From a virus, in IMG/VR virus record IMGVR_UViG_3300017726_000021, positions 1-37,054 of that record: DNA of 37,054 bases; one strand, 5' to 3'. The first letter of the stretch is position 1; every line of letters begins with the position of its first letter. The notes below the pieces were generated by a model, which was not told the origin of the DNA, made no database searches, and worked only from the letters and a program-made list of their open reading frames with translations. Below are positions 10,345 through 32,594 of the stretch, piece by piece. The translations under genes and the position numbers were made by a program.

Positions 10345-13300
10345 ATGCCACAAAACACTAACCTGAATAGATCCCCGTATTTTGACGATTTTGATACGGG
10401 GAAAAACTTCTATAGGATTCTGTTCAGACCTGGTTACTCAATCCAAGCGAGAGAGTTAACTCAGCTGCAGTCTATGCTGCAGGATCAGGTCGAACAAGTC
10501 GGCAATAGTATGTTCAAACAGGGTCAAATGGTGATCCCTGGCGAAGTCTCGTATTCTAATACGTATGACTATGTTAAGTTAAGTAGCGTCTCTCAGGTTG
10601 CACAAAACGTAAATGGCGAAATTAATTTCGTCAAATACAATATTTCTCAGCTGGTCGGCAAGATTCTTGTCGGTCAGACTTCTGGTGTTAAGGCATTTGT
10701 TGATAATCACGCTTTAGAAACTACAACAGACGCTGATACTATTTTTGTTAAGTATGTCAGTTCAGGTTCTGATAATACTGACGTTAGGTTTAGACAGGGC
10801 GAATCTCTCAAATTAGAAACTCCTACAACGGATAACGATCCGACTCTAGTTGTAGGTACAGATGGAATCAAACCAGCAGATACTACTGCTATGGGTTTTG
10901 GTTCTGCTGTAAACGTTCAGAAAGGCATTTACTTTATTAATGGACATTTTGTCCAGAACGAATCTCAAACTCTTATTCTAGAGAAATACAGTGCTATTTC
11001 TTCTTATAAGATTGGTTGGGATATTACAGAATCAATTGTCACTCCAGAAGACGATCCTTCGCTGAAGGATAACGCTCAGGGTTACTCTAACTATTCTGCA
11101 CCTGGAGCTCATAGACTGAAGATTACTTTGAATCTTCAAAAGTTTGCTGTTGACGCTCCATCAAATAAAAACTTTGTTCAGCTTGTCTTCCTGGAAGAAG
11201 GTAAAATCCAGAGACAAATTACTCAAACTTCACCTAGTCAGATTGAAGAGATTCTGGCACGTAGAACTTATGACGAGTCTGGCGATTATATCGTAAAGAA
11301 TTTTATTGCCGACCTTAAAGAATATTACAACGCTGATGGATCTGGTTACTATGATGTCAATTCATCAACTGGTCTAGTCAACGGTTTATCTGAACTGGCA
11401 GCTGATGGAAAGTTTATTGTTGGCATCGGTCCTGGTAAAGCTTATGTTCGTGGTTACGAAGTAGAAAGTACAGATACTAAGTATCTCGAATTAGATAAAG
11501 CAAAAGATACTCAGAGTAGAGAAAATACCAGACTATATTCCACACCTTTGCCTACAGTTGGTATACGTGGAGTTCACGGTTCTGTTCCTATTAGTGCTAC
11601 TTCTGATGGAGAATCTACACCATTTAAGAAAGCTAATTTTTATAGAAAATTTATTGATTCTTATCTTGGCGATAATGGTTCCAAAAACAGTCAAGATACA
11701 GGCATTTTTGTTGCTAGCGATCTAAGAGGAACAACTTATAATACCGATGCTGCAACTATGACAGTATGGGTATATCCTGGTGTCGATCCTGTCAATGGTG
11801 AGCCTATTGACCTTGCAACTAATACTACAGATATTGTTTACACCGACTTGAAGGTTGGCACTTCAGCATCTGTGTTCCACTTTAATGGCACCTCTTATGA
11901 TGAGATTAAAGTTGTTGCCGCAAGATTTAATCAAAAATACAATACGGATAGAGATAGAAACGTTCCTTGGAGCGAAGATAGTGCTACTGGTGGTATGAAT
12001 GAATCTGGTTCGGAGCACGTTGTGCACGAACTGATTCTAAGAGGTCCTATTGCAACTCTATACAGCATTCATCAATCTTACCAAGCACACGGTCCTGTAA
12101 AGCTGGGAGGTTCTGGTGGTGGCGCTAGTAATGGTATCTCTCTATATGGTAACAATACTGGTGCAACTTATTATGGTATGGTTCTAGACTATACTCTTCC
12201 AGTGCACCCTATCATTGGTAGAGCTATTGCAAGAGACTTCAAATTCCAAACAGTTCCTGTTGGATTTGATAAAACTCGTGGCGTTGTTGCTTCTAGTAAT
12301 CAGCAAGACTCTACATTCACATTCAGTTATACCAACCCCATTCTTTTCACCAAGATTGTTTTAACTGGTATCCACGCATTTGAAACTGGTTCTAATATCC
12401 AGGGTTCTATCTCTGGTGCCACTGCTGTTATCGAAGGTGGGTTGTCGGTTGGGCAAAATGATCCCGAGAATGCAACTTTATCTCATTCTAATACAATTGT
12501 ACTATCGAATGTTATTGGAGAGTTTGAAGAGGGAGAAGAAATTTTTGATATGGATGACAGTGCCAAAGCTGCTGTCATTGCTGTAGAAGGTCGTATTAGT
12601 CACTTCACTGTTCCTTATGGTGGTGAAAATTATTCTGATCAGATGGAGTTGAAAATTGGTCAGAGACAATATCGCGGTAACTACACTACTGTTAGAAGAG
12701 AGACTGCTGTTGACGGCATCGATGGTCAGCAGGATTATGTCCACTCTGTTACTTTCACCGAATTAGGTAGGAGAGAGATTTCTGATAAATTCCTCAGTCC
12801 TCCAATTGTTGAAGTTATTGATGTTGGTGGTGTACACAGTGCTAGCGATCCAGATGCTTATGTAAAAGCATTCCTTTATAAGAATGTCATTCAAACGTTT
12901 GGTACGGAAGATCTTCGTTCCGTTGGAATGACACACGGTAATAGTTCTAGAACGTTCTCTGCAGATATTCAGTATGCAGATACCGATTATACAGAATTTA
13001 AAACTATCACCAACAACCTACAGTATTCTGGCAGAACAGATTGCGACTTTATTGAAGCTACTAACTATAGTGCACGTCCTGCAGATGAACTTAAAGAAGA
13101 TGATTTAATTCAAATCACTGCTGATGGTGTTACGTATCGTTATGAAGTTGCGTATGCTTGCAATGCTACTACCGATACAGTTGCCAGAATTTATTTAAAA
13201 CAGCGTCTCTTAGCTAACTTCGATTCTAATACTGTTTCTAAGATTCGTGCAAAAATTGAAAATTCTGGAAAATCAAGTCTAGTTCTTCCTCTGCCAAACA

Positions 13301-16300
13301 GTAAAATTTATTCGATTCTTTCGGATGATGCAAATACTGAGATTACTTATTTCTCAAGAAAGCAATTTATTGAATCAGTTACTGTTGATGGTACCACAAA
13401 CGAAATTACTATTGCTGCACAGCTTGACTTTGGTCAACAGCAATTTGCTCCATTTAATCAAAGCGATTATGTAATGGAGATCTATACTGCTGGTGCTACT
13501 ACTACAAGATATGGCGGTGCTACTGGTGATCTAGTGAGAGAAGGAGATATTCTCTATATTGATCGTTCGATGATCTCGATCACTAGTGGTTCTGAGGGAA
13601 ATACTGCTGGCACTATTGCCATCAAGCTTCCACCCGATTACTTCTATCAAGCAGGTGCTCTGAATCTGGCAGATATGAAGTTGAAAATCAGTTGTACTAT
13701 TGAGACTGCAAACGCAAAACCAAAACTAAAAACATCTGTCAAGAAGAAAAGAATTTCTATTGCTTCGGATATCGATAACGATATTATCCCAATTAGAGGC
13801 GATGATTACGACAATCCAACTGGTCAGGTCAAGTCTTTCTCCGATGTATACAAGTTGCGTTATGTCTATGAAGGGCAAGCTGGTATTGCACCGTCTGTTG
13901 ATGAAGATGGAACTATTCTAGGTAACAGTGGAATTGATATTACAGATTACTTCTTATTCGATGATGGTCAAAGAGATTCTTTGTATGACACATCTGCATT
14001 AATTAGAAAACCTGGTTTCAGAACTCCTACTGGTACCCTAGTTATTGGATTTGATTATTTCAAGCATTCGGAAGGAGACTTCTTTGCAGTTGATTCTTAT
14101 CTCCACGAGAACGGTGTTTCATATTCTGAAGTTCCCAAATTTACTTCTAATGTATATGGCAGCAAGTCTTTAGCAGATGTAATTGACTTCCGTCCTTTGG
14201 TTGGTACATCAGCATTTATTCCTGGTTATCTGAATGCCAGTGTGATGGATCCATCATCCAATGTTTCTGAAGTGTTTACAAGTGGTGGTGTTACTGCAGC
14301 ACTTCCTGCTGACACACAAAGCTCTGCCAGTATTCCATACACCTTTGCTTGTCAGTATGAATACTACGTTGACAGAATTGATACTATTTACTTGAAGAAA
14401 GACGGTAACTTTATTGTTAAAAAAGGTGCTGGTTCTAACGATCCTCAGTCTGCACAAACAATTGACGAAGCTATTAAGATCTTCAAGATTTACATTCCTG
14501 CGTTTACTGAAAATCTCAGAAAAATCAAAGTTTTCCCTGTGGAAAACAAGCGTTTTACAATGCGCGATATCTCCAAATTGGAGAAGAGAATCGAACGTGT
14601 CGAGAGATATACAATGCTGTCTATCTTAGAACAGTCAGCTCTTAACACTCAAATTAAGGATGGTCAAACTGGTCTTGATAGATTTAAGTCTGGTTTTGCT
14701 GTCGATAACTTCGAGAACTTCAATCTCTCTAATATCAACAGCGTTGATTATAAGTGCGCTCTTGATCTCACTCGTGGTTCGATGCGTCCCGAGTCTAAAG
14801 AGACTAGTGTTACTTTGCTTGAGCACGATCCAAATCCAACTTCTAGACTTTTGTCTGGTTATGTGGTCAATAAAGGTATGGTTACTCTACCATTCACCAC
14901 AAAAGTTCTCGCTCAAAACAACTTTGCGACAGAAACTATTCCTGTCAATCCTTTCCTTATCTTTGCCTTTAAGGGAACTGCAGCTCTTTCTCCTAATGTC
15001 GATCCGTGGTTCGATGAGTATAGTCTGCCATCTTTGAATAATAACGACAACCAGACATTAGATCCTCTGGAAGTTTATACCGATGGAGATGTTGCCCTAT
15101 CTCAAATTCACGATGTTAGTAAGATCTCTATTCTTGGTAACGATTCCGAGTTTAGCAATGTCAATTCTCTAAGCTCTGATGCTCCTCAAACTGCAGAAGC
15201 TGAAGTTATTCAGTCTAAGATTACCAGTTCTTCTAATCTGGCATCTCAGAATACAGAGCTTCCTTTACAGCAAAGCAGTACTTCCATCGGAGAAAAAGTT
15301 CTTTCTACTTCATTCACTCTGTATGTGAAAGAGCAATATGTTGAGTTCCATCTTCGTAAGATGAAACCTAATACTAGATTGCATACTTTCTTGGATAATA
15401 TCAATATCGGTGGGTATGTGGTACCAGATCGTAACTATTCTGGCATTCCTGGATCTTCCCTCAGGTCTTGGGGAGACAATATAGTAACAGATGATGCTGG
15501 AAATGCTTCTGGTATTATTCTAATTCCTTCAGGTAGAAAACCATCCTTAGGCACTTTCCACGAAGAAAACATCGAAGACTTGACTTTTGATGAGTCTGTT
15601 GGGCTTAAATTCCCTCTGGGCGTTAAGAAGATTAAGTTTACGAGCAGCAGCACTAACGGACATCATCCTCAATCATTTGCCAATGTTTCTTTCTTCGCAA
15701 CTGCAATTAAAGAAACTGCTCCTAATGATATCATCGCTGTTGAAAATCTTAGCGATGATGAGAAAACAGATGGTACACAGTACACAGAGAATATCCTCAA
15801 CCCAGAGGTTTCTGTTGTTGACCCACTAGCACAAACTTTCCGTGTTGAAAGCTTTAATGGTGGCGTATTTGCATCTTCTGTAAATATGTACTTCTCGGAA
15901 AAAGATCCCATCTTGCCAATTTCGGTGAAGTTAGTTGATACTATTGCTGGTAGACCTTCTAAAAATGTCATACCTGGTTCTGAAGTTGTAATAGATCCTA
16001 ACACCTATCTTCGTGTTATTTGTAGTGGTGGACACACTCTCATTAAAAATGAGATCATCGAAGGCGATACTTCTAACGCACAAGGTCCTTTAATCAAAGT
16101 TCTGGATTCTCAGAATACTCCTGTTCCTGAAGTCAATGGCAACTTCAATCTGGCAACTACTCAAGTTTATACTTTAATCTTGGGAGACCACAACAAAGAG
16201 AGTTTCATAGCTGGCGAACCTCTGGTTATCACTTCACTGACTGTTGCTAATAACAGCAGATCTGGTGACGAGATTGTATCTGTGGAAATCGTTCAGGATT

Positions 16301-18594
16301 CTGGATACATCTCTCGTATTATTATGGACGATCTTGGAGATGGGTATGCAGGTTCGACAACTGTCACAATTGAATCTCCTCAATTGCCTGGTGGCGTTAC
16401 AGCTACTGCAGTTCCTAGTGTCACAGATCAAAAGATCTATGAAATTAATCCTACTTTAGGTGGTACCGAGTATACAATTCCTCCAAGTGTATTGATTGTT
16501 AGTACTAATGCCACACAGCTGGCATCTGCTACAGCAATTATTAAGTATAACAAACCTGCAGTTAGGATGGGTGTTGCTACAGATAGCAAGGCACTTATTC
16601 CTACAGAGTTCCATTTCGATTACCCGATATATCTAGAAAATGACCGTGAGTATGCTCTTCTCATCGAAACAAATAGCACTCAGTACCAAACATTCATTTC
16701 TCGCCTCGGTGAGACTGAAATTAACAGTAACTCTACAGTTACTACTCAGCCTTTGCTTGGTTCGCTGTTTAAATCTCAGAATAGCACTCTTTGGACCGCG
16801 AACCAATACGAAGACCTGAAGTTTGATATCTTTAGAGCACAGTTTGATATTACTAAGATTGGTGTTGTTCGTCTCGTCAATGATGATATGGGATATGACA
16901 ACCTTCCACCAAGTCCTGTCAGAACTGATGCTGATGGTTCTGGTACTACTTCGAGTCAGCTGTTTGGTGCCAATACTAAGGTTATCAAAATTGACCATAA
17001 AAACCACGGTCTTAATCCTGGATCCTTTGTTGCTCTGAAGAATGTTGGTGGTGTCGGTGGTTATTCGACTACTACTTTAAACAATCAAATCTTACCTGTT
17101 ATTAATGCTGGTATCGATTTCTATACTGTGGAGATGCCTACTGTTGCAGGCGGTAATGGTACTGGTGGTGGTAATATTGGTGTTGCTCTTGGGCAAATTA
17201 AGTATGAGAAAGCAGTCATTAAAATTGATGCTATTGATTACCCTGAAACGACACTCTCAACTATGGTTGAGACTACTAAGATCAAACCTATCGATAGCAG
17301 AGAAACTATCGTTGACTATGAGATTGAAAAACCAGTTGATATTATTCTCAATAAAGAATACTACTTCCCAACGCAAAGAGTTATCGCTTCTAAGCTGAAC
17401 GAGAAGATATATTCTGATCGTATGAACGATAAGAGATCAATGACCGTTAGTGCTACACTTTCTACCACTAATCCAAATCTTTCTCCTATTATAAACCTCA
17501 AGAATCCAAAGGCAATTCTCACCACCAACCGTGCTGAGTCTCCGAATGGTACTGAAGATAGATACGGGAAGAAAGTTCAGCAGGTTGAAGTTTATAAGAC
17601 AGTTGTTATGAGACTAACGGATAATGCAGCTTCTCCTGCAACTCTTGGTTCTGCTCAAACGTTTGAAGTTACTTCTGGCGAAGGACAAGTTATTACTGGT
17701 AAGACATCTGGCACTAAGGGTGTTCTGTCTTACTGGGATGCATCTTCTCCTGGTGAGATGTATGTGAGAATTACCGAAGGTGATGGTTTCATTATTGGTG
17801 AAGAACCTGAATTCAGTGGTTCATCTTCTTATAATAAAGAGTGGAACTTTGATGGCAGTACCACTAATCCTGTGAGTGGTGCAGCTACAGGGTTTACTTT
17901 ACCTCTAAAAATTGCTGGAGATCTTTCTCTCGCACAATTCGATATTGATCCTGGAAGTAACGTTGCGTTAGATGATGATTCTAAGACTGCCGTTGCTAAT
18001 CGTTGGAACCAAGAAAACTATCGTTTGATCTTCTCTTCTAACAATTCATTGTTTGTTGCTGGAGATTTAATCGGTTCTGGTGATAGCACTACTGGACTGT
18101 ACGAAGCTGGTTTTGATGTTATCAATAAGAGTTTCAATGTTCCTCAGGAAATTAAAACTGTATACGAAGCTTATGGTTTCTTATACACACCTGAAAGACT
18201 TAAGAATTCTTCTAACGTCGCAAATTATGTCACTAAAGAAATTTCGCTAGATAATCCTGGTAGTGGTATTACAGTCAAACTGACTGCTGCTCTACAAGAA
18301 ATAGACGACATTTCGTTGATGTATAAAACTAAGAGAGCGTCACAACAGGTGTTCTTTAAAGAAATCAACTGGACATACTTTAACACCACTGGTGTTCCTG
18401 ACAAGACTGTTTCGCCTTCCACAGGTACAAACTTCTCGCCAATTACTGAATCCGAAGAAGACTTCAAAGAATACTCATTTACTATTGGTGGATTGAAAGA
18501 TTTTAATTCTTTCGCTATCAAAGTTGTATTGAAGTCACGCAATCCATCTATGCCCCCTAGAATTAGGGACCTTAGAGCAATTGCAACTTATTAA
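10345..18594 (+). CDS. Giant virion structural protein, DUF4815 type
   Basis: 2749 residues. The N-terminus (SPYFDDFDTGKNFYRILFRP, then ARELTQLQSMLQDQVE) is the hallmark of the DUF4815 family of large myophage structural proteins. Later blocks fit the same family: VNPFLIFAFKG with WFDEYSLP near residues 1534-1562, MKPNTRLHTFLDN near 1673, and DPLAQTF at 1826-1832 followed by YFSEKDPILPISV. Inserted between them are FxxGExV/SGA modules and SG-GY modules shared with gp7 and gp8. The gene follows gp8 by 18 bases with no promoter of its own, so it is probably co-transcribed. A GAGACCTAAGAG leader supplies a weak ribosome site. In T4 this position is held by gp9 and gp10, so an attachment role for fibres at the baseplate is a reasonable inference, but it is unproven. 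Confidence 0.8.
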   Translation: MPQNTNLNRSPYFDDFDTGKNFYRILFRPGYSIQARELTQLQSMLQDQVEQVGNSMFKQGQMVIPGEVSYSNTYDYVKLSSVSQVAQNVNGEINFVKYNISQLVGKILVGQTSGVKAFVDNHALETTTDADTIFVKYVSSGSDNTDVRFRQGESLKLETPTTDNDPTLVVGTDGIKPADTTAMGFGSAVNVQKGIYFINGHFVQNESQTLILEKYSAISSYKIGWDITESIVTPEDDPSLKDNAQGYSNYSAPGAHRLKITLNLQKFAVDAPSNKNFVQLVFLEEGKIQRQITQTSPSQIEEILARRTYDESGDYIVKNFIADLKEYYNADGSGYYDVNSSTGLVNGLSELAADGKFIVGIGPGKAYVRGYEVESTDTKYLELDKAKDTQSRENTRLYSTPLPTVGIRGVHGSVPISATSDGESTPFKKANFYRKFIDSYLGDNGSKNSQDTGIFVASDLRGTTYNTDAATMTVWVYPGVDPVNGEPIDLATNTTDIVYTDLKVGTSASVFHFNGTSYDEIKVVAARFNQKYNTDRDRNVPWSEDSATGGMNESGSEHVVHELILRGPIATLYSIHQSYQAHGPVKLGGSGGGASNGISLYGNNTGATYYGMVLDYTLPVHPIIGRAIARDFKFQTVPVGFDKTRGVVASSNQQDSTFTFSYTNPILFTKIVLTGIHAFETGSNIQGSISGATAVIEGGLSVGQNDPENATLSHSNTIVLSNVIGEFEEGEEIFDMDDSAKAAVIAVEGRISHFTVPYGGENYSDQMELKIGQRQYRGNYTTVRRETAVDGIDGQQDYVHSVTFTELGRREISDKFLSPPIVEVIDVGGVHSASDPDAYVKAFLYKNVIQTFGTEDLRSVGMTHGNSSRTFSADIQYADTDYTEFKTITNNLQYSGRTDCDFIEATNYSARPADELKEDDLIQITADGVTYRYEVAYACNATTDTVARIYLKQRLLANFDSNTVSKIRAKIENSGKSSLVLPLPNSKIYSILSDDANTEITYFSRKQFIESVTVDGTTNEITIAAQLDFGQQQFAPFNQSDYVMEIYTAGATTTRYGGATGDLVREGDILYIDRSMISITSGSEGNTAGTIAIKLPPDYFYQAGALNLADMKLKISCTIETANAKPKLKTSVKKKRISIASDIDNDIIPIRGDDYDNPTGQVKSFSDVYKLRYVYEGQAGIAPSVDEDGTILGNSGIDITDYFLFDDGQRDSLYDTSALIRKPGFRTPTGTLVIGFDYFKHSEGDFFAVDSYLHENGVSYSEVPKFTSNVYGSKSLADVIDFRPLVGTSAFIPGYLNASVMDPSSNVSEVFTSGGVTAALPADTQSSASIPYTFACQYEYYVDRIDTIYLKKDGNFIVKKGAGSNDPQSAQTIDEAIKIFKIYIPAFTENLRKIKVFPVENKRFTMRDISKLEKRIERVERYTMLSILEQSALNTQIKDGQTGLDRFKSGFAVDNFENFNLSNINSVDYKCALDLTRGSMRPESKETSVTLLEHDPNPTSRLLSGYVVNKGMVTLPFTTKVLAQNNFATETIPVNPFLIFAFKGTAALSPNVDPWFDEYSLPSLNNNDNQTLDPLEVYTDGDVALSQIHDVSKISILGNDSEFSNVNSLSSDAPQTAEAEVIQSKITSSSNLASQNTELPLQQSSTSIGEKVLSTSFTLYVKEQYVEFHLRKMKPNTRLHTFLDNINIGGYVVPDRNYSGIPGSSLRSWGDNIVTDDAGNASGIILIPSGRKPSLGTFHEENIEDLTFDESVGLKFPLGVKKIKFTSSSTNGHHPQSFANVSFFATAIKETAPNDIIAVENLSDDEKTDGTQYTENILNPEVSVVDPLAQTFRVESFNGGVFASSVNMYFSEKDPILPISVKLVDTIAGRPSKNVIPGSEVVIDPNTYLRVICSGGHTLIKNEIIEGDTSNAQGPLIKVLDSQNTPVPEVNGNFNLATTQVYTLILGDHNKESFIAGEPLVITSLTVANNSRSGDEIVSVEIVQDSGYISRIIMDDLGDGYAGSTTVTIESPQLPGGVTATAVPSVTDQKIYEINPTLGGTEYTIPPSVLIVSTNATQLASATAIIKYNKPAVRMGVATDSKALIPTEFHFDYPIYLENDREYALLIETNSTQYQTFISRLGETEINSNSTVTTQPLLGSLFKSQNSTLWTANQYEDLKFDIFRAQFDITKIGVVRLVNDDMGYDNLPPSPVRTDADGSGTTSSQLFGANTKVIKIDHKNHGLNPGSFVALKNVGGVGGYSTTTLNNQILPVINAGIDFYTVEMPTVAGGNGTGGGNIGVALGQIKYEKAVIKIDAIDYPETTLSTMVETTKIKPIDSRETIVDYEIEKPVDIILNKEYYFPTQRVIASKLNEKIYSDRMNDKRSMTVSATLSTTNPNLSPIINLKNPKAILTTNRAESPNGTEDRYGKKVQQVEVYKTVVMRLTDNAASPATLGSAQTFEVTSGEGQVITGKTSGTKGVLSYWDASSPGEMYVRITEGDGFIIGEEPEFSGSSSYNKEWNFDGSTTNPVSGAATGFTLPLKIAGDLSLAQFDIDPGSNVALDDDSKTAVANRWNQENYRLIFSSNNSLFVAGDLIGSGDSTTGLYEAGFDVINKSFNVPQEIKTVYEAYGFLYTPERLKNSSNVANYVTKEISLDNPGSGITVKLTAALQEIDDISLMYKTKRASQQVFFKEINWTYFNTTGVPDKTVSPSTGTNFSPITESEEDFKEYSFTIGGLKDFNSFAIKVVLKSRNPSMPPRIRDLRAIATY

Positions 18595-26023: not shown

Positions 26024-29000
26024 ATGGCAAAGAAACTAGTCACTGACTACGAATTTGTACCGTATGATCCCAATACACTTACGGGTGGTACGGTCACGCT
26101 TAAAGACAACCTTAGTGGCGAGAGGATTCTTCTCATCACTAACGTTACAAATAACGAGATTCTTTATAACTTCTCAGACCCTACTAAGGGATTCCAGACT
26201 ACCGTTAATGGTACTGGTTGCGATTATAACGAGGATTTCGAGAAAACAATCATCTCGCTTGCAACTGATACGTCCACGATGAGTGCGACGGACCAGTTAC
26301 AAATTTTCGTGGAATCGTTTGCTTCTACGTTTGAACCAGCTGAAACGTTTGTTGACCCTGTGTCCAAACTCAGAGTTTCAAACCCAGAAACGATGATTGA
26401 CACGGACTTTGAGTATGGTCCGCAGGCAACGAAGTGGGAAACTCTTCAGCTTGTCAACAACATTCCGTCAACGTACTCCGCTACGAGTGACACAACAATT
26501 CCGTTTATCGAGAGTGTCATCACTCAAGCTAACTCGGATACCATCACAGTCTCGACTCTTTATGAGCACTCACTGACTGCTGGTGTTCCTATTGTGGTTA
26601 CTGGTCTTGCAGTTACAACTGCTGAAGGTTCTTACCTGATTCAGTCTGTTCCTACTCCAACCACATTCACGTATAAAGCACGCGCTACACAGTCGATTAC
26701 GGCGAACGTGGTGGGTTCTTATACCTCTATCATTCCTGGTCTCTTCTACGAAGGTTCTGCTATCAGTCTCCAGACTGATAAAGGCATCGTGGCAGATACT
26801 TTTGAGTATACCGTTACTGTCGATTCTGCAGGCGGTCAGGATTACTTCTCTATTGACGGAACTATTCCAGGTGGAACACCGTTCCAGCTCAACAAAAACG
26901 GAATGTACATCTTTAAGTTGGATGATGCATCCAACATTGGACATCCATTCCGCGTATCCACAACTGCTGATGGTATTCACGGTGGTGGTGTTGCATACAC
27001 AGATGGTGTATATGTAAACAGCACAGAAGGTGTTGCTGGTTCTTATGTTCGTGTTTACGTTACTGAGAACACCCCTGCAACTCTATATGCATATGATGCT
27101 AATGCTGGTAACACTGGCGTTGGTTTCGAGATTCAGTTCAATCCTGTTGCTACAACAAAGGTTGTTCTTTCAACGTCTTTCGAGAATGGTTTTAGCGACG
27201 GTACAGCACTGTACTTCGTTAACACGATTTCACCTAAGATTCTGTCTATCGGCAATACAACAGCAACTGCTGCTGACGGTCGTGCAGTGATTGATTATGA
27301 GAATACCTTCTCTGGTACTCTCAACCCTGATATGGCTGAGTTCCAACCATATGATCACAAGCCTACAGCGCTTTACACTGTTGACGATTCTAACGTCGAT
27401 TACACCAACAGTACTATCACCCTGACAGGTACGAACGCAAACAACTTCCGTTCGCGTTATGCATTGATGTATTACCCAAATGCGGGTGATTATTGCATCG
27501 AGAACCTTCAGCGTAACGGTGTATATTACACCCGTGTTGAGTCTACCTCATCTGCTGATGGTGGTACTGCAGTTATTAAACTGTCTAACGCTTGTTATGC
27601 TGCAGCAAGTGGTGGTAACCCTGGTAGCAACGGTATCATCAACCTTCGCAATGACTCTGGATCTTTGCAAGGAAACGCTGCAACGTATAACTACGGTAAG
27701 CATAACTTTGCTTTAGTTCATAAGTATGCCAGTGATGAGAAGCCTTGGTGGGATTGGTACTGGCGTTATCGCTGGATGTCTAACAGCGTAAACTCTACTC
27801 ACTCTGGTAGAGACTTTGCGGAAGTTAGTAGCAACCGAGGCATCTCCAACTCTAGCTGGAACCGTGCTTACTTTATGACGATGAACCGTCGTCAGTATAA
27901 TTCTAGCGGTGATCTGAACAGCTCTAACTACGACGGTCGTTTTAATAACAACTGGTATAACGGTAGTAATTCGGTCTGGGGATATAGTCCAGGTTGGAAC
28001 TACGATGACTATCTGCCAGAGAGCGAAACATCTCTGACTAACGGTAACTGGAACCCTCTGTACGACAGAAATCACTATCGTACTAACAGATATCGTTATA
28101 ACTATTCTCTCGACCACGGCAACGGATTCCACTTCCGTTATGGTTACGACTGGTGGAATGGATACTATAGAGGTCACGGATCCTGGGTTTGGAACTGGAA
28201 CAGTGACTACTACGGCAACGCTTTCCTGATGCTTGTTCAGGATCGTTCTACCGATGATGATACGTTCTACGTAGAGAACCACGGCGCGGTCACTAACGAC
28301 CAGATCGCAATGACTCGCACAGCAGGTGCGGATCCTCGTTACTACTCCAGTGAGAGTGGTATCTCAAGCTTGACCCTACCAGCGACTGTATACGTCGAGA
28401 AGGTTGATAACAACCGTTTCCGTATCAAGTCCTCTACAGGTGCCTCTCCGTATCGTCTGATCGATGCTGTGGGTACGTATGGTATGACGGGTATCTTCTC
28501 CAACCCTCTCCGTAACTCTTTCTACTACGAGAACCATAACTTGTCTAACGGCGAGCGTTTGTTCTACACCACGGCTGGTACCGCAATTGGTAACTTGACG
28601 CCTAGTAGTCAGTATTACGTTAAGGTTGTTAGCAACGATCGTTTTGCCCTTGGTTCGAGTTCTTCCTTCAGCTATCCTGGTGGAGAAATCGATGTCACTT
28701 CTGGTGGTTCAGGTACTCAAGTGTTTGAGAACCAGACTGCTGCATTCGGTGCTACTGATGGTGCCTATAGTGTTAGTGATGTCAAAGACGCAACTCAACT
28801 TGTTATCGAAGTTCCGTTCCAGATCGTTCCTTCCACGAAGACGTTCGACGCACGTGAAACTGGTAGCTCTGGTATGGTCGATACTACTGATCACACCTTG
28901 CGCATCGAAAATCACTTTATGAAGACTGGTCAGCGTGTAATTTATCAGGATGCTGGCGGTACAACCGTTGGTGGTCTGGTTGATAACCGTGACTACTTCG

Positions 29001-31402
29001 TGATCGTGATTGATCAAGATCATCTCAAACTATCAGAATCACTAGCAGGTGCTCTTGCTGGTACTAATGTCCAGTTCACTTCTGGTGGTTCGCAGACACC
29101 TCTGCAGAAACTGATCCATACTAATATGGACGGTCGTGTGGTTGGTGCTGGTTTGGTTGCTACACAGACTGGTTCACGTATTGTTATTGGTACTGATACG
29201 AACTTCACACGCTACTTTAAAGTGGGTGATCCGTTCCGTTATGTTAATAATAATTCTGCTGGAACGTTCTCGATTATCGAGACTACTATTGCAGCAATTA
29301 AGGATGACACTGAACTGCTGACAACTGATGATGCAGTATTTACTACAGGAGCTGTCAACTCTTCTGGTCCTACCGAATACTTCATCGACACCGCAATTTA
29401 TGTGCGTCCTGATGGATTCTTCCTCCACAGACCATTTGACGGTGGTATGGAGATTGGTACTAGTAAGTCTCCAGACGGTCAGATTGTAAGACAGACACGT
29501 AGATATTTCCGTTACCAGTCAGGTAAAGGTATCCAGTGTTCACTTGCTATTAACTTCTGTCCTAAGAACCCTGCAATCCGAGTCTTCTACTCACCTTACG
29601 TTGATGGTACAACCTATCACCGCGTTATTGTTGAGACGAAGCTTCCACATAACCTTGAAGTTGGTACAACTATCAAGTTCGTTGATGCTGATGACGTTTC
29701 TTATAACGGCACCTATAGTGTTGCCACTATAACTGACGAATTTACTTATACTTTCATTCTTGATCAAGAGCCTACATCATCTGCTGCTGGCGGTTTCACA
29801 GGTTACCACGTTCTTAACTGGAGTGGTTCCAACGTCCGTTGCGGTATGTACGACTTCCAGAACGGTATGTTCTTTGAGTACAACGGTTCAGTACTGAACT
29901 GTGTCCGTCGTTCTTCTACTACACAACTGACTGGTCGCGTTTCTGTGACTCGTGGTTCTAATGTGGTTGATGGTGATGACACTGCGTTCATCTCACAGCT
30001 GTCCGTGAATGATTACGTTGTTATTCGTGGTCAGTCCCATAAAGTTATTCGTGTTGTTAACAACAACCAGATTGTTGTTCAACCACAATACAAGGGTATC
30101 ACCGCTGCTAACATCATTCTGACTAAGACAATCGATACCAAGAAGCCTCAGGGCGAATGGAACGTCGATAACTGTGATGGATCTGGTAAGTCTGGATTTA
30201 TTCTAGACATCAGTAAGATCCAGATGGCGTATATGGACTACTCCTGGTATGGTGCTGGTAAGATTCGTTTCGGATTTAAGGATCAGAACGGTCACGTTAA
30301 GTACATCCACGAGTTCAAGCACAACAACCGCTTGACCGAGGCATACTTCAGATCTGGTAACTTGCCTGCACGTTATGAGATTCAGAACGTTGGTATTCCG
30401 ACTTACATTCCGTCTCTGTTCCACTGGGGTACTTCTGTTATCACCGATGGTAGATTCGATAGTGACAAAGCGTATCTGTTTACTGCATCTGGTAACTTGC
30501 TGAAGTTTACCAACGAAGTTGCACAAAGCGCTACAACGAACCAAAACTCGTCAATCCAATCCCAATATAACGTTGGTGAAGGTTGGTCGCGTAATATGCG
30601 TTTCTACATTAGAACGTTCTTCCCAACTAGTGAGTCTGGTAAGCTAACACAGGGTACTACTGTGTATCAGACTACCATTGCTAATGGTTGGTTCGTAGAT
30701 GGTCGCGCTATCTATCGTTCTCGTTCTTCGAGCGGTAATCTAGAAGTTGACTTCTTGTATATCGATACTAACGGTAACGAGCGCTTCCAGTACAACAGAG
30801 GTACCAGCATCATTAATAGTGATCTGGGTAGTCCTGCTGTTCCTAGTGGCACTCAATTCTCGGTTGGTGCAGTTACTGGTACTGACAACGTGGTGCCTTC
30901 GCAGATTCCGTTGGTGTCTATTCGCCTGTCGCCTTCTGTGGACTCTTCGCTGTCTGGTTCCTTGGGTGAACGTGAGATCATCAACCGAATGCAGTTGCAG
31001 CTCAACTCTCTTGACATCGTGAACACGCACGAGTGCGAGATCAAACTGATCTTGAACCCGTCGCTGTCCACTGACCAATACTTAGACGTGGCACCTCCGT
31101 CACTGTCTCAGTTGATCAAGCACACGGTGGACGACACCTACGCTGGTGGTCTTGAGATCTTCTCCTTCCGTGCTGCTGGTGGTCAGATTGACAACTCTGG
31201 TAAGCGTGGTACAGGTTCCATCTCGTATGATATTAGCACCCTGGTTGAGATGGGTAACTCCATCCTCGGCGGTGACGGTATCTTCCCGAACGGACCTGAC
31301 CTCCTGACTGTTATCGCTGAACCTGTTGACCTTACGGGTGTGAACAACACCTCACCCTTCACCGTCACGGGTCGTATTTCCTGGAGTGAGTCTCAGGCAT
31401 AA
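26024..31402 (+). CDS. Large virion structural protein (1792 residues) with SWYGAG and SGNLPARYE signature
   Basis: The N-terminus is MAKKLVTDYEFVPYDP. Residues about 273-373 look cupredoxin-like: GHPFRVSTTADGIHGGG from 306, then LYAYDANAGNTG at 354-365. Residues about 573-731 are extremely rich in Trp, Tyr, Asn and Arg. Several H-L-x-x-G modules follow (ENHNLSNGERLFYTTAG, ENHFMKTGQRVIYQDAG, LPHNLEVGTTIKF). From residue 1405, DYSWYGAGKIRFGF and then TEAYFRSGNLPARYEI form a signature I associate with large phage structural proteins. The C-terminus has GNSILGGDGIFPNGPDLLTV. The gene uses CGT and C-ending codons far more than its neighbours, which suggests an abundant product. It sits between the fibre block and gp13. 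A baseplate or fibre-base role is inferred. No T4 counterpart is recognised. Confidence 0.8.
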   Translation: MAKKLVTDYEFVPYDPNTLTGGTVTLKDNLSGERILLITNVTNNEILYNFSDPTKGFQTTVNGTGCDYNEDFEKTIISLATDTSTMSATDQLQIFVESFASTFEPAETFVDPVSKLRVSNPETMIDTDFEYGPQATKWETLQLVNNIPSTYSATSDTTIPFIESVITQANSDTITVSTLYEHSLTAGVPIVVTGLAVTTAEGSYLIQSVPTPTTFTYKARATQSITANVVGSYTSIIPGLFYEGSAISLQTDKGIVADTFEYTVTVDSAGGQDYFSIDGTIPGGTPFQLNKNGMYIFKLDDASNIGHPFRVSTTADGIHGGGVAYTDGVYVNSTEGVAGSYVRVYVTENTPATLYAYDANAGNTGVGFEIQFNPVATTKVVLSTSFENGFSDGTALYFVNTISPKILSIGNTTATAADGRAVIDYENTFSGTLNPDMAEFQPYDHKPTALYTVDDSNVDYTNSTITLTGTNANNFRSRYALMYYPNAGDYCIENLQRNGVYYTRVESTSSADGGTAVIKLSNACYAAASGGNPGSNGIINLRNDSGSLQGNAATYNYGKHNFALVHKYASDEKPWWDWYWRYRWMSNSVNSTHSGRDFAEVSSNRGISNSSWNRAYFMTMNRRQYNSSGDLNSSNYDGRFNNNWYNGSNSVWGYSPGWNYDDYLPESETSLTNGNWNPLYDRNHYRTNRYRYNYSLDHGNGFHFRYGYDWWNGYYRGHGSWVWNWNSDYYGNAFLMLVQDRSTDDDTFYVENHGAVTNDQIAMTRTAGADPRYYSSESGISSLTLPATVYVEKVDNNRFRIKSSTGASPYRLIDAVGTYGMTGIFSNPLRNSFYYENHNLSNGERLFYTTAGTAIGNLTPSSQYYVKVVSNDRFALGSSSSFSYPGGEIDVTSGGSGTQVFENQTAAFGATDGAYSVSDVKDATQLVIEVPFQIVPSTKTFDARETGSSGMVDTTDHTLRIENHFMKTGQRVIYQDAGGTTVGGLVDNRDYFVIVIDQDHLKLSESLAGALAGTNVQFTSGGSQTPLQKLIHTNMDGRVVGAGLVATQTGSRIVIGTDTNFTRYFKVGDPFRYVNNNSAGTFSIIETTIAAIKDDTELLTTDDAVFTTGAVNSSGPTEYFIDTAIYVRPDGFFLHRPFDGGMEIGTSKSPDGQIVRQTRRYFRYQSGKGIQCSLAINFCPKNPAIRVFYSPYVDGTTYHRVIVETKLPHNLEVGTTIKFVDADDVSYNGTYSVATITDEFTYTFILDQEPTSSAAGGFTGYHVLNWSGSNVRCGMYDFQNGMFFEYNGSVLNCVRRSSTTQLTGRVSVTRGSNVVDGDDTAFISQLSVNDYVVIRGQSHKVIRVVNNNQIVVQPQYKGITAANIILTKTIDTKKPQGEWNVDNCDGSGKSGFILDISKIQMAYMDYSWYGAGKIRFGFKDQNGHVKYIHEFKHNNRLTEAYFRSGNLPARYEIQNVGIPTYIPSLFHWGTSVITDGRFDSDKAYLFTASGNLLKFTNEVAQSATTNQNSSIQSQYNVGEGWSRNMRFYIRTFFPTSESGKLTQGTTVYQTTIANGWFVDGRAIYRSRSSSGNLEVDFLYIDTNGNERFQYNRGTSIINSDLGSPAVPSGTQFSVGAVTGTDNVVPSQIPLVSIRLSPSVDSSLSGSLGEREIINRMQLQLNSLDIVNTHECEIKLILNPSLSTDQYLDVAPPSLSQLIKHTVDDTYAGGLEIFSFRAAGGQIDNSGKRGTGSISYDISTLVEMGNSILGGDGIFPNGPDLLTVIAEPVDLTGVNNTSPFTVTGRISWSESQA
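27737..28217 (+). other. Trp/Tyr/Asn/Arg-rich region of the 1792-residue protein
   Basis: Residues about 573-731 contain roughly 15 Trp and 20 Tyr in about 160 residues. Examples are KPWWDWYWRYRW, YRYNYS, YDWWNGYYRG and SWVWNWNSDYYGN. The rest of the protein has a normal composition. The reading frame is intact and codons remain CGT- and TAC-rich, so it is genuine coding sequence. Confidence 0.85.
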
Positions 31403-31790: not shown

Positions 31791-32594
31791 ATGGCGTCAC
31801 CAAGTACGAGAACTGAATTACAGAACTATTGCAAGAGGCAGCTTGGCGAACCTGTCTTGCAAGTTAACGTTGCCCAAGAGCAGATCGATGATCTGACGGA
31901 TGACGCTTTGCAAAAATTTGCAGAGTGGACATACAACGGCACCGAAAAAATGATGCTGAAGCACGAGATTACGGAAGATGATGTCACAAGATTTAAATCG
32001 CAAAATCAAACCACATCAGTTTCAGGAAGCGAGTGGACTGAAAGGGATAACTACATCCCTATCCCTGAACACGTTTATGGTATTAATCGTATTTTTGGTA
32101 TTAAGTCTAGTGGGATCAGAGGTGCTCTTTTTGGTATTGAGTATCAAATATTTCTTAATGACCTCTACCACTTTGGTGCTGTAGATATTTTAAATTATTA
32201 TATGACTAAGAGTTATCTAGAAACTCTTGACTTTGTTTTGAACAACGGAACATTTATTCAGTATAGATGGAATCAGAGACAAGATCGTCTTTATCTTGAT
32301 ACAGCAGCTGAGGATATTAAAAAAGGTGAGTTCCTGATTATCGAATGCTATAGAGCATTGGATCCCACCACATACACACAAATTTATAATGATCCATTCC
32401 TGAAGAAGTATCTCACCGCTCTCGTAAAGAGACAATGGGGTACCAACTTGACAAAATATACTGGTGTTCAACTGCCTGGTGGGATTTCTCTCAATGGAGA
32501 AAAGATTTACACCGAAGCTGTTGCTGAAGTAGAAAAAATAGAATCTGAGATTCTTTCTACTTATGCCTTACCGCCCTACGATCTTATCGGGTAA
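31791..32594 (+). CDS. gp13: Neck protein gp13
   Basis: 267 residues, slightly shorter than T4 gp13 (309). The N-terminus (LQNYCKRQLGEPVLQVNV, then QIDDLTDDALQKFAEW) corresponds to the gp13 family opening (short helix, LG-PV-x-x-NV, DDAL-x-x-F). The sequence LKHEITEDDV and the middle IPIPEHVYGINRIFGI also fit. gp13 joins the portal to the tail and helps close the packaged head with gp14. It is the first gene of the neck cluster and overlaps gp14 by one base (TAATG). Confidence 0.9.
   Translation: MASPSTRTELQNYCKRQLGEPVLQVNVAQEQIDDLTDDALQKFAEWTYNGTEKMMLKHEITEDDVTRFKSQNQTTSVSGSEWTERDNYIPIPEHVYGINRIFGIKSSGIRGALFGIEYQIFLNDLYHFGAVDILNYYMTKSYLETLDFVLNNGTFIQYRWNQRQDRLYLDTAAEDIKKGEFLIIECYRALDPTTYTQIYNDPFLKKYLTALVKRQWGTNLTKYTGVQLPGGISLNGEKIYTEAVAEVEKIESEILSTYALPPYDLIG

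Follow-up and report, generated by a model that had tools for sequence, protein, structure and literature searches.

Genetic context of the 1792-aa protein

The window analysed in this study, i.e. the whole 37,054-nucleotide stretch of viral DNA forming positions 1 to 37,054 of IMG/VR record IMGVR_UViG_3300017726_000021, encodes on its plus strand a protein of 1792 aa (26024..31402) that carries a module rich in aromatic residues. Judged by profile match and gene order, this is a virion structural protein of T4-like cyanophages, and thus of a known kind: the whole ORF matched the phrog_5838 profile (E 3.3e-191) in four stretches, the best of which covers residues 393-1457. The PHROGs category of the protein is 'head and packaging'; the gene order suggests that it is located in the tail. 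The ORF lies between tail-fibre-like ORFs on one side and, on the other, a gp13-like neck (head-tail adaptor) gene (31791..32594, plus strand; phrog_211, E 1.6e-46); gp13-like, gp14-like, gp15-like and terminase genes are found directly 3' of it. Homologues of the protein likewise precede gp13-gp14-gp15-gp16 in phages S-BM3, S-CAM1 and S-CAM3; in S-RSM4 the homologue sits elsewhere and is annotated as 'similar to structural protein in S-PM2'.

Four modules of the protein (all on the plus strand) deserve separate description: (i) a conserved N-terminal module (residues 1-258, 26024..26797) with the motif DTDFEYGxQxTKWE, defined by blastp and alignment A5, matched by blastp in S-BM3, S-CAM1, S-CAM3, S-RSM4 and contig L026, and presumed to serve as the virion anchor, (ii) the module immediately preceding the aromatic domain (residues 375-550, 27146..27673; alignment A2), whose mean identity to A6-group proteins is 39%, (iii) the most conserved structural module (residues 1364-1490, 30113..30493; SWYGAGKIRFGF...RSGNLPARYEI), which shows 63-71% identity to its counterparts in S-BM3, DSL-LC01, ctQRb9, L026 and L027 and has more than 500 relatives in IMG/VR, and (iv) a conserved C-terminal module (residues 1624-1792, 30893..31399), recognised by blastp to isolates and by identity to the A6 group. 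In the family members from isolates, residues 1-258, 1097-1500 and 1624-1792 are conserved, and the intervening part is largely swapped from phage to phage. The structural proteins of the phrog_5838 (T4-GC_863) type known from S-PM2, S-RSM4, S-BM3 and S-CAM1 share these three conserved regions with the window protein, and the homologues from S-BM3, S-CAM1 and S-CAM3 also share its place before gp13. However, all examined isolate proteins lack the aromatic domain, and other modules occupy their middle part.

Some further features of these proteins and their surroundings were recorded. A sub-threshold match to PF12195, the phage endosialidase beta barrel (E 0.0094, 16.3 bits, cut-off 35), was obtained for residues 166-233 (26519-26722 of the window), and short 'NHG/HGL' modules resembling this region seem to be repeated along the 1792-aa protein. 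The window also contains a 2749-aa ORF (10345-18594; phrog_358, a family of unknown function, E 0), flanked by a baseplate wedge gene and tail-fibre-like genes. In the Actinomycetia phage DSL-LC01, the 2853-aa homologue (L040:669-9230) is labelled 'ALK tyrosine kinase receptor', which is evidently a misannotation. In S-CAM1 (L038:1264-3787) and S-CAM3 (L039:1656-3728), the tail-fibre gene and the gene homologous to that of the 1792-aa protein are immediately preceded by genes for phosphoheptose isomerase, heptose kinase/adenylyltransferase and a nucleotide-sugar epimerase, possibly an LPS-related cluster.

Aromatic segment and extent of the domain

The densest accumulation of Trp, Tyr, Asn and Arg was found in residues 572-732 (27737..28217, plus strand), a segment of 161 aa composed of 15 W, 20 Y, 26 N, 21 S, 15 G and 14 R, with I, L and V totalling 10. 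The first-pass annotation of this DNA had given about 15 Trp and 20 Tyr, numbers that proved exact, and the two clusters it singled out (WWDWYWRYRW and YDWWNGYYRG) are both present. When all window proteins were shuffled 200 times, the maximum W+Y count averaged 17.0 and never exceeded 21, vs 35 in the real segment; the next-best stretch of the same length contains 19 in any ORF of the window and 15 within the 1792-aa protein. The first-pass annotation called the composition unlike anything else in the window; as a general statement this would be too strong, since the homologues described below match the segment in both position and composition. The term 'insert' was appropriate insofar as related phages lack this accessory module; the homologous unit is somewhat longer than the dense segment and comprises approximately residues 551-750 (27674..28273, plus strand), as delimited by alignments A3 and A11 and by an iterative HMM.

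A family of SGxD aromatic domains

The first-pass annotation had suggested a search for similar segments in related phages, and such segments were found. Scanning with the module of residues 1364-1490 provided more carrier proteins, a profile of the aromatic segment retrieved distant homologues, and the set was enlarged by iterative HMM building and further scans. In 13-15 close relatives the segment is present at 64-87% identity and is nearly gap-free; several of the other homologues were aligned through gapped, low-identity regions. The resulting family consists of 71 non-redundant copies (less than 90% identity) of 165-249 aa, all of them, in the material searched, inside the same virion protein family and from uncultured viruses only, several of which carry photosystem genes. 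The sole invariant columns of the 77-sequence family alignment (A11) are the S, G and D of an SGxD motif, represented in the window by SGRD (residues 594-597; 27803..27814, plus strand). One further D (position 196 of A11) is near-invariant, and the polar residues conserved family-wide are few.

The distant homologues occupy the same place in the protein as the window copy. Copies from uncultured cyanophages in IMG/VR (L088, L085, L113, L137 and others) share with it this position, the SGxD motif and the richness in aromatic residues, at an identity of 20-28%; many uncultured homologues contain some 25-35 additional residues, in a stretch with no counterpart in the window type. The profile of the distant A6 group scored the window-group domains at 26-48 bits, vs a maximum of -5.6 for 2000 shuffles of the window domain, which indicates homology rather than a bias in composition. 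For the short members of the A7 type the direct link is weaker (at most 15.5 bits vs a shuffle maximum of -2.2, some window-type copies falling below the shuffle maximum), and their assignment to the family relies also on intermediates and position. Taken together, the alignments show the segment to be a member of a divergent, previously undescribed accessory domain family.

The distribution of the domain is patchy: it is present in 74 and absent from 60 of 135 distinct long ORFs of the carrier family. No match to it was detected in the records of cultured phages (tblastn of divergent copies gave nothing, or chance matches at E>=2), and two scans of GTDB genomes revealed no cellular or prophage copy. 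Genes of the psbA/psbD type, encoding the photosystem II reaction centre, were identified on 6 of the 22 tested domain-carrying contigs of relatives, among them the two largest contigs of the window type (187 and 149 kb). At least those contigs are therefore derived from cyanophages; on the others, which are incomplete, the lack of such genes carries little weight.

Other aromatic-rich modules, apparently unrelated to the SGxD domain, occupy the same variable middle of related proteins. A second type (A12) was found in four members of the carrier family (L136:4260-4682, L184:3763-4200, L133:4581-5024 and L189:4617-5033), with 20-25 W+Y per 100 residues and an invariant W and Y near 'NxxWxxY'. 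Its presence in the same proteins makes the hyper-aromatic composition a recurrent trait of their variable middle. An hhalign comparison (E 0.4, 9 columns) lent no support to kinship of the two types. Among members devoid of the SGxD domain, L204 (at residue 476 of the ORF that starts at 1743) and L256/L260 (at residue 427) also show stretches dense in W/Y, with 25-27 of these residues per 100.

Comparison with domain and structure libraries

Searches of Pfam and PHROGs with the aromatic domain revealed no family at E<=1 except isolated chance matches; in Pfam there was one chance-level match overall, and no carbohydrate-binding module or lectin family was matched. The profile search of the PDB gave nothing credible. 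Its single weak hit was to the designed protein SAKe6 (8pjz), which we take to be a designed propeller, where one stretch matched the A6 profile (whole-sequence E 0.001). No stretch passed alone, the full-family profile gave no match and there was no match in fold; the hit was therefore treated as compositional. AlphaFold2 modelling of the domain alone with 77 homologues produced short strands and helices (pLDDT 57, pTM 0.55), and this model had no Foldseek match in the PDB, none in VIA and only meaningless ones in BFVD; for residues 375-840 with 15 close homologues the pLDDT was 33. The domain is thus what is new at this locus, with nothing credible in the libraries searched and no copy in cultured phages, and the kind of carrier protein was already known. 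The suspicion of undescribed biology voiced in the first-pass annotation is borne out to the extent that the module is real and conserved and has no credible counterpart in Pfam, PHROGs or the PDB.

Selection and divergence

For residues 561-745 compared with ten relatives, dN/dS was 0.06-0.14 where computable (synonymous sites were saturated in four of the ten pairs), similar to the flanks. Such values on the sense strand exclude a reading-frame artefact and indicate a functional domain rather than junk; in close relatives, the codon comparisons show, purifying selection preserves it. Antisense to the segment there is a Val/Thr/Pro-rich open frame of 189 codons (27713-28282, minus strand), which is probably a by-product of the Trp, Tyr, Asn and Arg codons.

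A different picture emerged over longer distances. Compared with the A6 group, the aromatic domain averages 27% identity, vs 57% for the N-terminus, 73% for residues 1361-1500 and 59% for the C-terminus. At 80-85% identity of the structural module, the median for the aromatic domain is 41%, and values down to 54% occur even when the module is >=95% identical. By these measures the aromatic domain is the fastest-changing part of the protein, far ahead of the conserved module in the same chain. Rapid divergence and lineage-specific aromatic residues would fit a recognition surface, although the divergence is also compatible with escape from host defence or with relaxed structural constraint.

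Core-like and surface-like aromatic residues

Among 13 close members, 55% of the aromatic positions are invariant, vs 30% of the polar ones. We followed the 48 aromatic columns of the window group into the A6 group, where 26 stay hydrophobic (mostly aromatic), 12 turn polar and 10 are mixed. The first set has the pattern expected of a core, and the second is a candidate lineage-specific surface; more than half of the aromatic columns thus appear to act as a hydrophobic core, not as a binding surface. Across the family (whose sequences are not independent) W+Y content correlates negatively with that of ILV (-0.68) and FILVM (-0.74), and weakly with most polar classes, threonine excepted (-0.58). 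This trade-off with aliphatic residues is seen in three of the four subgroups and is absent inside the window group (r = 0.10). The aromatic residues are evenly spaced, with lags 2, 4 and 6 enriched and lag 3 depleted, as on beta strands. The first-pass annotation had held that its reading would be refuted if homologues revealed an ordinary known domain with the same residues buried in its core: the core-like pattern does apply to more than half of the columns, but no known domain matches.

Proposed role and alternative explanations

We propose that the module forms an accessory domain of its own, about 200 residues long, within the giant tail/neck-region protein of T4-like cyanophages. It would adopt a beta-rich, globular fold, with a core in which Tyr, Trp and Phe largely take the place of Leu, Ile and Val. 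Other aromatic residues, specific to the lineage (among them W584, W658, Y660, Y663, Y680, F704, Y708, W721, Y729 and Y730), are probably exposed and, together with Asn, Arg and Asp, may contact a ligand on the host surface; a picocyanobacterial polysaccharide or LPS would be the likeliest ligand. The domain would in this way help to determine to which cells the virus adsorbs. A role in recognition, probably of a glycan, is suggested by the accessory placement, the fast divergence, the exchange with other W/Y-dense modules and the surface-type residues (Y, W, N, R, S, G). That the module helps the virus to recognise its host is probable on these grounds; the complete model, comprising fold, aromatic core and ligand-binding surface, has the best support of the readings considered, and we take it to be about evenly balanced between right and wrong.

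The main rival is a structural spacer or clamp, i.e. a domain that folds and decorates the fibre or neck, with aromatic residues serving only stability or subunit contacts and rapid divergence reflecting weak constraint instead of receptor contact. Such a domain would account for the core-like behaviour of most aromatic columns, for a location in the middle of the chain between conserved modules (tail tips are usually terminal) and for dN/dS values that do not exceed those of the flanks among close relatives. However, the domain is present in some proteins and absent from others, gives way to different aromatic modules in the variable middle of the chain, and diverges far more than the flanks, all of which is typical of recognition modules; we regard the spacer as possible but doubtful.

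An enzymatic domain acting on carbohydrate or peptidoglycan is a good deal less probable. Clefts of glycan-active proteins are usually lined with aromatic residues, and the SGxD motif or neighbouring acidic residues, including the near-invariant D, could be catalytic; yet no enzyme family was matched in Pfam or PHROGs, and few polar residues are conserved throughout the family.

The membrane-active element considered in the first-pass annotation is very improbable: the Trp/Tyr content is as high as in interfacial membrane segments, but the maximal 19-residue hydropathy of residues 572-732 is 0.06, GRAVY is -1.46, the net charge is 0 and aliphatic residues are scarce, and conservation extends over 200 residues, as in a domain, and not over a short amphipathic stretch.

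Least credible is a target of a diversity-generating retroelement (DGR) or a similar hypermutation system, which would give rise to variable positions rich in Tyr, Asn, Ser and Trp: the N, S, Y, G, D and W composition does resemble that of hypermutated binding sites, tentaclin-type DGR domains among them, but neither the window nor four relatives' contigs of up to 187 kb (incomplete) encode a reverse transcriptase, purifying selection on the segment is strong, and variation extends across some 200 residues, where many aromatics are invariant, without hypervariability concentrated in a short 3' repeat. DGR-diversified receptor-binding domains such as tentaclins (PMC10743442) resemble the aromatic domain in accessory placement and presumed recognition role; given the absence of a reverse transcriptase (in the DNA just mentioned) and of a family match, and the purifying selection, this is a likeness of idea only.

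Implications

A wider conjecture may be formulated, which is speculative and at present rather unlikely. Uncultured marine T4-like cyanophages might draw on a library of interchangeable hyper-aromatic recognition modules, of two or more apparently unrelated types and with up to 28 W+Y per 100 residues, for the middle of this protein. The cores of these modules would be built from Tyr/Trp instead of aliphatic residues, and their exposed aromatic/Asn/Arg surfaces would act as an antibody-style paratope for the surface glycans of picocyanobacteria. A globular domain with a largely Tyr/Trp core and very few aliphatic residues would, if true, be a structural curiosity in itself.

Little is understood of how abundant ocean cyanophages tell apart picocyanobacterial hosts that closely resemble one another, and receptor-binding parts are seldom recognised from sequence. 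The analysis provides a domain with defined limits that can be expressed (residues 551-750), a family of 71 variants sharing a core, and the positions of lineage-specific aromatic residues, which makes the hypothesis of its role in host recognition directly testable.
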